Source: Parcubacteria group bacterium Greene0416_39 (GTDB lineage: Bacteria; Patescibacteriota; Minisyncoccia; Minisyncoccales; UBA10102). From it: a stretch of DNA of 40,457 bases. Location: contig VMEU01000001.1 of NCBI GenBank assembly GCA_007375675.1, positions 1-40,457 of the forward strand. The letters are read 5' to 3'. A program made the position numbers and the translations under genes. This document shows, piece by piece, positions 14,443 to 30,015 of this stretch. The notes below the pieces were generated by a model that was not told where the DNA came from, did not search any database, and saw only the letters and a list, made by a program, of their open reading frames with translations. The number at the start of each line of letters is the position of its first letter. Within the stretch, counting starts at the first letter, position 1.

Positions 14443-16230
14443 TTATTCTATTTCTTTTGGAAGGCCTCTTTTTGCTAGTATTTCTTCTGGTTTGGTGGTT
14501 ATGATTTCGTGTTCAGTGGGTGAAGCGACAACTTTGATTGCAACGTGCTTTTGCCCTGCAAAAAAGATTCCTTCTCCTACCTCGGTTTCCAGGAGCAAGC
14601 TTTTTTCCTCATCGGTAAGATTAAACGCTTTTTTCACAATGTCTATGGTTGCCGGGCTTTGCTTTAAAAGAATTTTCAACGCAGAGTTTGTGATAATAGG
14701 CCTTCCATAGCTCGATTTCAAAAAGTCTCCCACGTCTTGGGTAATGGTGGTAACGCCAAGAAAGTACTTTCTTGCTCTTTTCACAACGCCGTACAAAAAC
14801 GAAGCTCCGTCTTCAGACTGCATCATCCACCAGGCCTCGTCTACCACAAAAATGCGTTTTTTGAGTTCAGACCTCACCTTGTTCCATATGTATCTTGTGA
14901 TGATATACATTGCCATTGGCCTCAAGCCCTCTTCCATATCCCGTATGCCAAAGACCACCAGTTTATTGTCTAACGCAATGTTTGTTGGCTGGTTAAAGAA
15001 GTTTGCATAGGTTCCTTTAGTGAACTTTCTTAGGCGCACCACAAGAGAATCTGCTCCCTCCATACCCTTGAGCACTTCTTCCAAGTCTTCCATTAACGGA
15101 GTTTTGTCTTGCCACATTGCGGGATCCGAATCTACGGTGATATCTTTTGCCGCATAGGTTTCTGAAATTGCCCGGTCCATAATTGCATCTTCTTCTGGGG
15201 TTAGGCCGCCGAGCATAAGGCGCATTAAACCCACAAGGTTAATAATGTTGGAGCGGAGCACGTCTTCTGGTTTCTCGTCTTCTCGAGGAGAAGCAAGATC
15301 AAAAGGGTTGATGTGGTTTTCAGAGCCCAGAGAAATGTTAAAGAAAGAGCCTCCTGCAGCTTCTGCCAAAGGTTTGTATTCGTTTTCGGGGTCAAGAATA
15401 ATCACCTCAACGCCAGTCATCAGGTATCTCAAAACCTCCAGCTTAACAGCGTACGATTTACCCGAACCACTCGTGGCGAAAATTGCTTCATTGGCATTCT
15501 CCAAAGAGAATCGGTCAAAGAGAATGAGAGAGTTATTGTGTCGGTTGATGCCAAACAAGATTCCTTCATTTGAACTTAGGTCGAAAGACACGAATGGAAA
15601 CGTGGAAGATAGGGGCTCGGTATTCATTGACGTGTGCACCTGCAAAAGGTCTTTGCCATAAGGCAGGCACGAGTTGAATCCTTCTTTTTGCTGGTACAAG
15701 GCGGGTTTAATATACATGAGCCTTGACTCAAAAATAGAGCGCAGCACCGTTTCAACGTCCCGTAGCTCCTTTTGGGTTTCTCCGTACACGGTAATGTACA
15801 AGCCAAAGCGGAACATGCGTTCCTGGGCTGTTTGGAGGCGGTCTCGTAAGGCCTCAAGGTCTTGGAAAGCGGTTTGAAGTTCAGGGTCGCGCACCAAACC
15901 CTTGTCTTCCTTTTCCATAATTTCAGATTGCACTTCCGTAACCCTCCTTCGTAGTTGCTTGAGCATGGTTCCCGTATCAATGGGGTGCACAAACATTGCA
16001 ATGTCCATGGGCAGGTCAAGGTTAATGGCAGAAGCAAGCCACGCTGCGGTAAGGTACCTGGGGTAAGAAAAAATGAAAAAGGATTTTGCAAATCTTCCGT
16101 TAAGATCAATGTATTCTGAATCAACCTTCACGGAAGCAGGAGCAATAATGTCTTTTGACGTAGTTACCTCTGTGTCAAATATCTTGTCCTGGGCCTCCGC
16201 TTGTTTTTTCTTTAGAAAAGGGATCTTCAT
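14443..16230 (-). CDS. VirB4/TraC-type T4SS ATPase
   Basis: FATSGSGKSYAVKLEVLRYL, VIILDPENEYKPLAEA, IFVVDEAWWMM, TTITQDVGDFLKSSYGRPIITNSALKILLKQ. Confidence 0.92.
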   Translation of the reverse strand: MKIPFLKKKQAEAQDKIFDTEVTTSKDIIAPASVKVDSEYIDLNGRFAKSFFIFSYPRYLTAAWLASAINLDLPMDIAMFVHPIDTGTMLKQLRRRVTEVQSEIMEKEDKGLVRDPELQTAFQDLEALRDRLQTAQERMFRFGLYITVYGETQKELRDVETVLRSIFESRLMYIKPALYQQKEGFNSCLPYGKDLLQVHTSMNTEPLSSTFPFVSFDLSSNEGILFGINRHNNSLILFDRFSLENANEAIFATSGSGKSYAVKLEVLRYLMTGVEVIILDPENEYKPLAEAAGGSFFNISLGSENHINPFDLASPREDEKPEDVLRSNIINLVGLMRLMLGGLTPEEDAIMDRAISETYAAKDITVDSDPAMWQDKTPLMEDLEEVLKGMEGADSLVVRLRKFTKGTYANFFNQPTNIALDNKLVVFGIRDMEEGLRPMAMYIITRYIWNKVRSELKKRIFVVDEAWWMMQSEDGASFLYGVVKRARKYFLGVTTITQDVGDFLKSSYGRPIITNSALKILLKQSPATIDIVKKAFNLTDEEKSLLLETEVGEGIFFAGQKHVAIKVVASPTEHEIITTKPEEILAKRGLPKEIE

Positions 16231-16234
16231 AATG

Positions 16235-16317
16235 ATAATGCAAATTTACGAATGATATGCGAATGCCGCGAATAAAGAGTATTTGTACATTCGCATACAT
16301 TTGTAGATTAGCATTAT
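16235..16317 (-). mobile_element. MITE-like near-palindromic element, copy A (83 bp)
   Basis: ATAATGCAAATTTACGAATGATATGCGAATGCCGCGAATAAAGAGTATTTGTACATTCGCATACATTTGTAGATTAGCATTAT; ~30-bp imperfect terminal inverted repeats. Confidence 0.85.
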
Positions 16318-16973
16318 TTTAATACCTCTGGCGGTATCTCGGGATAATATCCAACCTCTGCTTCGGCCGGATGGTGCCAAGCCCACAGAAGCTCAATGAG
16401 CTCTTGGGTTTCCAAAGGTACAGCCTGGAGCCCGGCCCTTCTCAAACCCAAAGCAACAAACTCCATTCTCTGCCAGAGCTGGTTTTTCATGCGTTCAAAT
16501 TGTTCGTCAGACAGTTTCCCGGTAAACTTTGGCTTTTGGAATTTGCTTTTCCCGGGCTCGGCAACCGTTTCCAAGAGCGAGAAAGGGACTATGGCAAAAA
16601 AGTTTTTTGCCATAATAGAGCCCCCTTTTCCTCCCTCTGGGCCAGAGATAAGCTGCTCCACGAATTCGCGATAACTCTTCGTCTGCTGCTTCAGAAGCTC
16701 TACCTTCTGTTGCTCCTCAAGGTTTTTTAGGTAGTCTAAATACCCGGTAATGTTTAAGCGCCGAGATTGAATAATGATTTGCAAAGGAAAGTCCAAGGAG
16801 TTTAAAAAGTTTTGGAACTGGGAGATAATGGCCTCCTGTTCTTCGCCAGACTTCAACGCAAAGTTTTGGGAAGAAACCATAAGCACCCCCCGAATGGCGC
16901 GGTCTTTGAGTACGAGCGTTCCTTCCCGCACCTCTTCTATTTCCAAAAATTGTTGAGTTGAAGCGTCTTTCAT
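16314..16973 (-). CDS. T4SS-locus protein (TraC/VirB4 N-terminal-like)
   Basis: LVLKDRAIRGVLMVSSQNFALKSGEEQEAIISQFQNFLNSLDFPLQIIIQSRRL, immediately upstream of virB4. Confidence 0.65.
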   Translation of the reverse strand: MKDASTQQFLEIEEVREGTLVLKDRAIRGVLMVSSQNFALKSGEEQEAIISQFQNFLNSLDFPLQIIIQSRRLNITGYLDYLKNLEEQQKVELLKQQTKSYREFVEQLISGPEGGKGGSIMAKNFFAIVPFSLLETVAEPGKSKFQKPKFTGKLSDEQFERMKNQLWQRMEFVALGLRRAGLQAVPLETQELIELLWAWHHPAEAEVGYYPEIPPEVLK

Positions 16974-16977
16974 TAGT

Positions 16978-17467
16978 ATAATGCAAATTTACAAATGATA
17001 TGCGAATGCCTCAAATCAGGCATTAAAGGCATTCAAAATTCTTTTTGGAGCAATAAACTTCTGGCGAAAGTTTACAAGGATCCCCAATTTCTTTTTCAGA
17101 GCAGTCAAGTATCTTTGAACCTGGTAGTAATCTTCTTTAGTTAGAATCTGTTCTGTTTTTATCTCCAACACTATTTTATCATCAATTAAGAAATCTACTC
17201 TATTTCTTCCAATAGCTTCTCCCGCAAAAGACGGAGGGAGAATTTGCTCACGATCGTATTTTACAGCTGAAGTTTTTAGGTGTTTTTCAATACTATCTCC
17301 GTACTGTTTTTCGTTGCAAAATCGTCCAAGTTCGTTGTGTACAGTAAAAAGAATCCCAATAATTTGGTATGAAAGCTCGGGGTAAATTACCTTCTGTGCT
17401 GGGTCGTTTAGTTTATGTGGTCGCTCGTTTATTTGTACATTCGCGCTCATTTGTAGATTTGCATTAT
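16978..17467 (-). mobile_element. Full-length copy B: same terminal repeats flanking a GxxExxY nuclease gene
   Basis: Left 33 nt (16978-17010) matches A and C at 31-32/33; right 38 nt (17430-17467) matches the right halves of A and C; the gene lies between. Confidence 0.75.
17016..17450 (-). CDS. GxxExxY family protein (PD-(D/E)XK nuclease superfamily)
   Basis: YPELSYQIIGILFTVHNELGRFCNEKQY...IGRNRVDFLIDDKIVLEIKTE...YLTALKKKLGILVNF; catalytic D..ExK intact. Confidence 0.88.
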   Translation of the reverse strand: MSANVQINERPHKLNDPAQKVIYPELSYQIIGILFTVHNELGRFCNEKQYGDSIEKHLKTSAVKYDREQILPPSFAGEAIGRNRVDFLIDDKIVLEIKTEQILTKEDYYQVQRYLTALKKKLGILVNFRQKFIAPKRILNAFNA

Positions 17468-17472
17468 TGTAT

Positions 17473-17748
17473 TCATTTTTTCCAAGTATATATCTTAGGA
17501 GAAGCGCTAAAGTGCAGAAAATCCATCAAAAGCGCGGGAAGCGATTTTGCTCCCACTTTCACAAACCCAAGCGCAAAGCCAAGCCCGCCCAGCAAAAGGG
17601 CGCCAACAATAAATATCGTAAAAGGAACCGTAAAGTACAAAAAGAACGCAACTGCTCCTGGCACACCCAAGTACACGAATTGTTTAAAAGTGAAAGGGCC
17701 AATTACTTTGGCTTCTCGTTCTATAAATTGTGGGATCTGGAATGGCAT
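17473..17748 (-). CDS. PrgI family T4SS-associated membrane protein
   Basis: MPFQIPQFIEREAKVIGPFTFKQFVYLGVPGAVAFFLYF... Confidence 0.8.
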   Translation of the reverse strand: MPFQIPQFIEREAKVIGPFTFKQFVYLGVPGAVAFFLYFTVPFTIFIVGALLLGGLGFALGFVKVGAKSLPALLMDFLHFSASPKIYTWKK

Positions 17749-17755
17749 ATGAAAT

Positions 17756-17837
17756 ATAATGCTAATTTACGAATGATATGCGAATGCCGCGAATACTCGT
17801 ATTTGTACATTCGCAGTCATTTGTTGATTTGCATTAT
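17756..17837 (-). mobile_element. MITE-like near-palindromic element, copy C (82 bp)
   Basis: ATAATGCTAATTTACGAATGATATGCGAATGCCGCGAATACTCGTATTTGTACATTCGCAGTCATTTGTTGATTTGCATTAT. Confidence 0.85.
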
Positions 17838-18274
17838 TCTATCGGTTCACGGTACGTATCCGGCCCAGATGGCTTCTCTTCTTTCCTCGGCCGTTCTCCT
17901 TCCTCACCAGACGGCTGGGGGGTAACGATTTTCGCGGATACCTCAATTTCCATCTTGTGGAGCTGCTCCAGCGCTGGCTTCACAGGATAGAACACCAGGC
18001 GGTTGATCTCGCGAGCAATCAACTCTGCCACATCCTTTTTAACTCCTAACGTTTCTATTTTTGCTGAGAATTCTTGAGGGAGTACCAAACCAATCAAAAC
18101 TTGCCCGGTTAACTCCACAATTTCCCCGAGATGTTCCGTTGCCTCGTATTTTTGGCAGATTTCGTAGATATTGTCTCCTGTTTCTTGCGCCCAAAGAACA
18201 TCCTTAAGCTCTTGGGGAAGCTTTTCGTAGAGTTTCCAGAATTGCTCTTTTTGATCTTTGTTTATCGTAGCCAT
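17834..18274 (-). CDS. Hypothetical T4SS-locus protein
   Basis: First gene of the minus-strand operon; its TAA stop overlaps the end of element C. Confidence 0.65.
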   Translation of the reverse strand: MATINKDQKEQFWKLYEKLPQELKDVLWAQETGDNIYEICQKYEATEHLGEIVELTGQVLIGLVLPQEFSAKIETLGVKKDVAELIAREINRLVFYPVKPALEQLHKMEIEVSAKIVTPQPSGEEGERPRKEEKPSGPDTYREPIE

Positions 18275-18302
18275 TGACAATTTTTTGAATATATGCTATT
18301 AT
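18274..18302 (+). promoter_or_regulatory. Consensus sigma70-type promoter
   Basis: TTGACA-17-TATTAT. Confidence 0.75.
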
Positions 18303-29022: not shown

Positions 29023-29045
29023 CTTAGTTTCTGAAAGAAGGTCAA

Positions 29046-29109
29046 GCCCCGTAGTGAAACTTTGACCAAACTTCGTTTGCGAAAGCAAGTCAAAGTTCTA
29101 CTACGGGGC
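29046..29109. other. 64-nt long hairpin with GNRA tetraloop, overlapping the stop codon of 29101-30015
   Basis: GCCCCGTAGT/ACTACGGGGC, AACTTTGAC/GTCAAAGTT, TTGC-GAAA-GCAA. Confidence 0.75.
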
Positions 29110-30015
29110 AAGAGCTGCTTTCATACTTTCGAGAGAGGACGTGATGAGGAGTACATTGCCCTTGAGAGCGTATACAATCCCAAAGTCTTTCACAGAAAAA
29201 GTCTGAAAGCGAATCAGGGTGTTTTGATAAGAGGTCTGTCTGAAAAAAGGAACATACGCCTTCCCTTTCTGTCCAATAACATTCCAAAGAGTTTCAAGGT
29301 CTTTTTCCATGTTTCCTTCCCACTGTTGGAGCATCTCCTGTACTCCTTGTGGACTCTGGAGCTGAAAAATAAAACCCAAACGTTTTTTGTCTTGAGAAAC
29401 AAAAGAGAATACCGTAAATTCATCTTGGATAATTTCCTTGAGTTGAGAAGGGAAAGGAAGTTCTGCCATCTTGTCTTTTACCAGCATTTTTGTGAGCCCT
29501 GAAGTTTCTTCTTTTGCGAGTAGTGTTTGAAAAAGAGAGAAGAGAGAAGGCTCGGGAGCCCGTCCAGAATCTTCTGGGCGAGGCTCGCCCCCTTCGGGGG
29601 CGGCAGGCGCTGGTGCTAGAGCAGGGGCTGTTTCCGCTTTACTGTTCTTTTGCATATTCCATACCGCAAAGGCTGCAATGTTGATGAGTATAAAGGTAAT
29701 GCCTAAAATCAGCGCAACCCTGATAAACACCTTGTCAAAACGAGCAGGCTTCTTTAAAGGAGCAGCTAAAGGAGCGGGTAAAGGAGCAGGTAAAGGAGAG
29801 GATAAGGGAACAGGTAAAGGAGCGGGTACAGGAGTGGGTAAAGAAACAGGGGCTTTGGGCTTAATGCTCATAATCTTTTCTCGTTCTTTCCCTGCCTGTT
29901 CTTCCCGAAGTTGTGCAACATCTTTTGCCATAGTACGAACCTCGTTCCGTTTCAGGAATTCCAAAGTCTCTTCTGGGCCTTGTTTTTCAATTGGATGTTC
30001 CGGGCTTTGTGGCAT
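29101..30015 (-). CDS. Hypothetical membrane-anchored protein with Pro-rich linker
   Basis: Cytoplasmic N-term, PLPAPL repeats, TM VALILGITFILINIAAFAVW; overlaps pnp by 29 nt. Confidence 0.75.
   Translation of the reverse strand: MPQSPEHPIEKQGPEETLEFLKRNEVRTMAKDVAQLREEQAGKEREKIMSIKPKAPVSLPTPVPAPLPVPLSSPLPAPLPAPLAAPLKKPARFDKVFIRVALILGITFILINIAAFAVWNMQKNSKAETAPALAPAPAAPEGGEPRPEDSGRAPEPSLFSLFQTLLAKEETSGLTKMLVKDKMAELPFPSQLKEIIQDEFTVFSFVSQDKKRLGFIFQLQSPQGVQEMLQQWEGNMEKDLETLWNVIGQKGKAYVPFFRQTSYQNTLIRFQTFSVKDFGIVYALKGNVLLITSSLESMKAALAP
29758..29842 (-). repeat. ~12-bp tandem repeats (GGAGCAGGTAAA-like) coding the (P-x-P-L) linker
   Basis: aaaggagcagctaaaggagcgggtaaaggagcaggtaaaggag... Confidence 0.8.

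Follow-up and report, generated by a model that had tools for sequence, protein, structure and literature searches.

The window, by which we mean the whole 40,457-nucleotide stretch analysed (contig VMEU01000001.1 of Parcubacteria group bacterium Greene0416_39), contains three palindromic elements, A, B and C, lodged between co-directional genes (Table 1). The palindromic structure and boundaries that a first-pass annotation had assigned to each were borne out, as was the M-x-A-N-V-Q-I start that it had read in all three: on the coding strand B begins MSANVQI, A MYANVQI and C MTANVQI, and the mini-ORF of C reads MTANVQIRVFAAFAYHS, followed by a stop. The TAA stop of the 219-aa gene is supplied from within A, the stop codon of the 148-aa gene lies inside the end of C, and B is flanked by the stop of the PrgI-like gene 5 nt upstream and the start of the 219-aa gene 4 nt downstream. 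Strong RNA hairpins are predicted for A (-27.1 kcal/mol, z -6.4) and C (-23.3 kcal/mol, z -4.8). The VirB4/TraG-like gene has orthologues in 19 of 24 other family genomes searched.

Table 1. Palindromic elements of the window and the genes around them
Feature	Position	Strand	Remarks
VirB4/TraG-like T4SS ATPase, host gene downstream of A	14443..16230	-	PF19044
Element A, solo palindrome, 83 bp	16235..16317	-	between 219-aa gene and VirB4/TraG-like gene
219-aa host gene between A and B	16314..16973	-	no Pfam family
Element B, full copy, 490 bp	16978..17467	-	two inverted arms around GxxExxY ORF
GxxExxY protein, 144 aa, PD-(D/E)XK nuclease, RecB/Cas4 type	17016..17450	-	TIGR04256, PF13366, alignments, AlphaFold/Foldseek
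PrgI-family protein, 91 aa, host gene between B and C	17473..17748	-	PF12666
Element C, solo palindrome, 82 bp	17756..17837	-	between 148-aa gene and PrgI-like gene
148-aa host gene upstream of C	17834..18280	-	

Profile searches confirmed the GxxExxY identity that had been proposed for the ORF of B, with matches to TIGR04256 (E 6.9e-24, 84.5 bits against a cut-off of 35) and PF13366 PDDEXK_3 (E 4.4e-25, 88.7 bits against a cut-off of 22). Conserved residues are E47, D86, E96, K98, Q110 and Y114, and the nuclease active-site pattern of D, ExK and QxxxY is kept in alignments of 22 and 40 sequences. When an AlphaFold model (mean pLDDT 87, pTM 0.79) was compared with known structures by Foldseek, the nearest were Cas4 (SSO0001, Pcal_0546), AddB and lambda exonuclease, with E just above 0.001; tRNA splicing endonucleases also matched with weaker scores, and PADLOC Cas4 profiles gave a weak match (E 1.6e-4). 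As judged from the model and these profiles, the protein resembles Cas4/RecB nucleases, its activity being inferred in the absence of an assay. It has in common with Cas4, RecB and AddB the fold and the active-site pattern, but GxxExxY, at about 115 residues, is the only gene of its element and is bounded by inverted repeats of its own. The gene is under purifying selection (pN 0.07 and pS 0.71 for the pair L199-L200; pN 0.12 and pS 0.90 for L052-L054), with synonymous sites so near saturation that the pN/pS ratios are rough. The sole PDB sequence match to the profile was 8up5 chain P, named KEOPS subunit Pcc1 (about 62 residues, E 0.0016).

The Greene0416_39 genome (517 kb, 14 contigs) has one GxxExxY gene, carried intact by B as the single 490-bp copy. 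A BLAST search with the element returned 49 matches in this genome, so that its recurrence cannot be put down to chance; they comprise 23 two-armed solo palindromes of 79-85 bp, one half element and B. Solo copies of about 83 bp, which the first-pass annotation had suggested looking for, are therefore present in number. It had also taken A and C for internal-deletion derivatives of the gene-bearing cassette. Their MITE-like character stands, but they need not be separate in-place deletions of B: nine solos at unrelated loci, C among them, have an identical 28-bp centre including the loop, CCGCGAATACTCGTATTTGTACATTCGC, and therefore descend from one already-deleted copy, the gene having been lost before dispersal. 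The solo form itself, as inferred from that common centre, has spread. In most solos a short ORF begins within the upstream arm and terminates 8-20 nt short of the element's end; no null comparison was made, and palindromy alone may put the stop at that position. We saw no clear target-site duplication by eye in the flanks or in full/empty comparisons, and no flanking sequence common to the solo sites, which are many unrelated junctions.

Almost every copy has the same orientation and lies precisely between a stop codon and the co-directional start codon that follows it. In gene orientation, a co-directional stop codon lies at -8 to +5 of the element start in 20 of 24 copies, and the next start codon falls at -2 to +7 of the element end in 21 of 24; the automatic start finder missed the rpsS start after C12:45713, which was seen in the S10-operon comparison, and by the stop/start test one solo (C14:6919) lies outside operon junctions. 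Polarity is fixed, arms with GACTGCG always being upstream. Four junctions of the S10 ribosomal operon are occupied in this genome (before rpsS, rpsC, rplP and rpsQ). Crude gene calling placed about 1 of 3468 intergenic bp of the window in co-directional gaps of 15 nt or less; because it mis-called at least one gene, this is only a rough sign of non-random site preference.

Related genomes reveal what these junctions look like when unoccupied. In three sister genera the genes on either side of A's site overlap stop to start (ATGA; such as TTAAAATGAAA) where this genome reads TTAAA-ATAATGC...GCATTATCATT-ATGAAG, and at B's site most relatives have TAATG or short gaps (-1 to 19 nt), so that T4SS operons without the elements, another check proposed in the first-pass annotation, do exist. 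The rplB-rpsS, rplV-rpsC and rpsC-rplP junctions are gaps of a few nt in most of up to 22 relatives. The rplP-rpsQ junction is not a clean empty site, since in most relatives it spans about 180-200 nt and seems to contain a small ORF at the position of rpmC. Since relatives have empty sites at most junctions compared, the copies were inserted. The same comparison bears on the idea of a regulatory role, in which the host would keep the palindromes upstream of a regulon as operators, attenuators or translational leaders. The near-constant distance to the start codon and the mini-ORFs ending just before it in most copies would speak for such a role. Some relatives have other palindromes at the S10-operon junctions, and sister genera lack elements at the same gene pairs, several having unrelated palindromes there; we give this idea almost no credence and, on the strength of the empty sites, rejected a host regulon or operator. 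One genome of the same family (G001) has a palindrome of the element type at an operon junction and no GxxExxY gene detected by protein-family search; a palindrome can thus persist without a resident nuclease.

Across the phylum, GxxExxY genes were found in 62 of 384 genomes searched. With a Smith-Waterman score of at least 24 as threshold, inverted repeats bound 43 of 51 loci (84%) in a first set, compared with 1.4% of 507 control windows of equal geometry in the same loci, and 72 of 82 loci (88%) in a second, compared with 1.6% of 1232 control windows; the second set consists mostly of named GTDB genomes and partly overlaps the first (for example L224/G359 and L243/G161). No repeat was detectable at this threshold for 8 of the 51 genes of the first set. 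The bounded loci are also sense-oriented at junctions: on the sense strand an upstream stop was found at 36 of 43 and a downstream start at 35 of 43, against 4 and 6 on the other strand, with corresponding values of 61 and 62 of 72 against 12 and 15 in the second set.

The arms, about 30-60 bp long, each contain several copies of a word near [AG]-C-N-R-A-W (about ACNRAW), spaced mostly 8-10 nt apart. The expectation that GxxExxY genes would be systematically bounded by the ends seen in the window was met for inverted repeats in both sets but failed for one conserved sequence. What the arms conserve is a pattern of construction from short repeated words, in a dialect that differs from one protein lineage to another. 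When each locus was given a dialect label (CNGAW or CNAAW, admittedly crude), the 51-protein tree required 8 changes, compared with a shuffled mean of 14.4 and a minimum of 9 in 300 shuffles, and word similarity correlated with protein identity (Mantel r 0.507; maximum of 2000 permutations 0.192). Pairs from the same genome with less than 40% protein identity had word sharing of 0.09 (n=8), compared with a background of 0.10 and with 0.55 for pairs from different genomes at 55% identity or above (n=22). By these measures, arm dialect tracks the protein tree and not the genome, and the view that ends and ORF form one heritable unit is well supported; words and protein could, however, be inherited together merely by descending as one unit, without the one being recognised by the other.

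Solos are not confined to Greene0416_39. In a genome of another family in the same class (G161), which has one GxxExxY gene, the stretches examined held 26 palindromic places, the weakest with a palindrome score of only 18, and both flanking genes were co-directional at 22 of them. G211 had one CACAGAT-dialect solo at a junction, and few solos were met in the stretches examined of G359 and G211; solos are thus not abundant in every genome. Small indels in the arms caused an ungapped palindrome scan to miss elements; a gapped scan found more yet missed element C of the window, and its counts are consequently lower bounds. Together with the empty sites, the systematic inverted-repeat ends and the co-inheritance of ends and ORF, the G161 solos support the central proposal of the first-pass annotation, a mobile family with MITE-like derivatives.

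Outside the phylum, relatives occur in plasmid records of Treponema saccharophilum, Gemmatirosa, Persicobacter and Bacteroides finegoldii. The B. finegoldii copy (record NZ_OY725952), between radA and a gene for a FAD-dependent protein, has clear inverted repeats (score 45), which were not seen in the other three. PHROG 5928, of unknown function, matches the GxxExxY protein at 6e-10; no phage record matched the protein, and a phage origin was rejected on that ground despite the PHROG match.

Several copies lie within genes instead of between them. The GxxExxY domain is found inside LepA, before NLIDTPGHVDF (L051, L052 and L054), where three genera from a single family share the insertion loop, and inside RecG, between the DEQHRFG and TATPIPRT motifs (L053, L056 and L058), in the same loop in two families (f70 and f125). 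Pfam confirmed split hosts for L052, L056 and L058 and found no protein-splicing domain in these three, the only in-frame hosts scanned. Inverted-repeat scores are low for L051, L052, L054 and L056, with word-like sequence visible by eye in some. Insertion in frame within conserved LepA and RecG recalls inteins and homing endonucleases, from which the element differs in the lack of a splicing domain in those three hosts and in the intergenic position of most copies. The recurrence of the same loops would suit a homing gene drive, with the nuclease cutting alleles of a site that lack the element and homologous repair then copying it in. Yet vertical inheritance or transfer may account for the common RecG and LepA sites, and one allelic site cannot explain solos at many unrelated junctions with no common flanks, which leaves homing a decidedly improbable account. 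The in-frame copies also recall Rickettsia palindromic elements (RPEs), palindromes able to insert in frame in protein genes. To our knowledge RPEs carry no gene, whereas the element has a full copy with a nuclease gene and most of its copies are at gene junctions.

A parallel class is built around a different protein. Four-helix-bundle genes of the type found in 23S rRNA intervening sequences (IVSs) were found in 161 of 290 phylum genomes searched; inverted repeats were present at 20 of 30 TIGR02436 loci (score 24), in arms with a strict 7-nt period (0.417 at lag 7, compared with 0.265 in controls). These elements occupy the same kind of stop-start junction and have the same architecture as the GxxExxY elements, whose words are 8-10 nt apart and not strictly periodic at 7 nt. 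This genome's own four-helix-bundle gene (PF05635; L124, C4:107671-107988) is flanked by 7-nt words of the AATTCCAAATTCCAA type as a separate element class, and at the PrgI-219-aa junction that B occupies, a related genome (G010, locus L127) has a four-helix-bundle-like ORF with TTGTTAAACTGTTAAATTG words, identified by eye.

The 23S rRNA IVS (S23/four-helix-bundle ORF, TIGR02436, PF05635) is likewise a small ORF between inverted repeats, about 400-500 bp in all, but the element encodes PF13366/TIGR04256 and not an S23/four-helix-bundle protein. An rRNA IVS identity was rejected, none of 17 GxxExxY loci tested being in an rRNA gene; by Rfam none of these 17 lay in or beside any known RNA gene, and a known structured RNA was rejected in the absence of an Rfam match at the window elements. 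A looser kinship is conceivable, namely an IVS-like element acting at the RNA level, whose arms form an mRNA hairpin that is cut or bypassed after transcription, the nuclease acting on RNA or aiding tolerance and the route of spread remaining unknown. Sense orientation at operon junctions, the strong predicted hairpins and the 23S_rRNA_IVP four-helix-bundle genes, which sit in parallel elements at comparable sites, fit such a reading, as does the Coxiella IVS, whose terminal inverted repeats form a stem that is cut by RNase III in vitro (PMC4990558). It is nonetheless unlikely in our estimation, though a live possibility: the LepA and RecG copies are read through in frame, so that a cut in the mRNA would inactivate the host gene, the closest structural matches are for the most part DNA nucleases (Cas4, AddB and lambda exonuclease), and no Rfam family matches.

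The genome encodes five Y1 (RAYT-like) transposases as well, four of them over the family cut-off, and REP palindromes are the classic case of dispersed palindromes mobilised in trans. The solos might then be REP-like sequences moved by these enzymes, with the GxxExxY gene a passenger in one copy. However, two of the Y1 genes (L279, C12:12876; L281, C5:12145) are flanked on both sides by REP palindromes of their own (ACAAAGGACGGACCTTTGT; TGTGCGAAGTCCGTCCTCGCACA), with a core of GGACGGAC or GTCCGTCC that is unrelated to the GxxExxY element, and no element-like sequence was found near any Y1 gene (alignment score at most 18, compared with 164 for self). Word-built inverted ends, moreover, accompany GxxExxY genes throughout the phylum. 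Although the Y1 transposases could act in trans on the elements, we consider a passenger origin improbable, the Y1 genes having other palindromes or none found.

The reading that we favour, with reasonable though far from full confidence, is of a selfish mobile DNA element mobilised by its nuclease and accompanied by non-autonomous solos; data on nuclease activity or transposition are lacking. Two word-bearing inverted arms would bound one minimal Cas4/RecB-type nuclease gene, and the unit would insert sense-wise in the gap between a stop codon and the start codon of the following operon gene, leaving every gene intact. The nuclease would be translated from the operon mRNA, with its ATG in the upstream arm. 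We infer that it may recognise the word-bearing palindrome, as a cruciform or hairpin, and cut the palindrome or the target, and that host repair would complete the insertion. Solos would have lost the gene, kept both arms and gone on spreading in trans, like MITEs or REPINs. At the level of sequence, comparison among genomes establishes insertion, the junction site, the fixed orientation, the heritable unit of ends and ORF and the spread of solos after gene loss; mobility of the palindromic element is strongly supported on the same footing. That the GxxExxY nuclease is the mobilising enzyme is inferred as the likeliest explanation, without direct evidence. As to whether there is a phylum-wide, undescribed and transposase-free class of operon-junction palindromes, in which a minimal Cas4/RecB-type nuclease, encoded by the only gene, would recognise its own iterated arm words and mobilise gene-less copies in trans, with a sister class of four-helix-bundle elements and 7-nt words, we find the case evenly balanced.

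Among known systems, REP/REPIN sequences with their RAYT (TnpA-REP) genes come close, as short dispersed palindromes with a single flanked gene and many non-autonomous copies, but the enzyme here is a PD-(D/E)XK nuclease and not a Y1/HUH transposase, and the arms consist of short repeated words inserted sense-wise at stop-start junctions; the REP/RAYT hallmark, a Y1/HUH gene flanked by the repeats, is not met in this genome. As in a MITE system, short copies that keep the termini of the complete element occur alongside it, both here (one full copy with 23 solos) and in G161; unlike the parent transposon of a MITE, however, the complete element encodes no transposase, GxxExxY being the only gene in B. 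Because each known family tested fails a defining feature, we regard the element as novel as a category, with the caveat that it works like a REPIN/MITE system. No published description was found in open-access full text, most subscription papers and preprints being outside the search, and within that literature the absence remarked on in the first-pass annotation holds. We know of no settled function for GxxExxY or four-helix-bundle IVS-type proteins; our analysis offers a testable role for both, as genes of mobile elements, accounts for the palindromes scattered along operon seams of highly reduced genomes and suggests a route of insertion that spares the host because the element lands between a stop and a start codon. 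Movement driven by the nuclease alone, if real, would represent a new mechanism of mobility for a DNA element.

Palindromes and inserts of other kinds were also seen. At 29032-29123 of the window, a 92-bp palindrome of another type (CCCCGTAGTAGAACTTTGACTTGC...) lies near a co-directional gene junction. Short palindromes of the form TCCTTCGA[CT]AA[GA]CTCAGGA, another dispersed class, lie at S10-operon junctions in three related genomes (L151, L153 and L165, of G004, G010 and G007, respectively), and two more unrelated inserts (L164 of G002 and L155 of G001) each occur at two S10-operon junctions of one genome.
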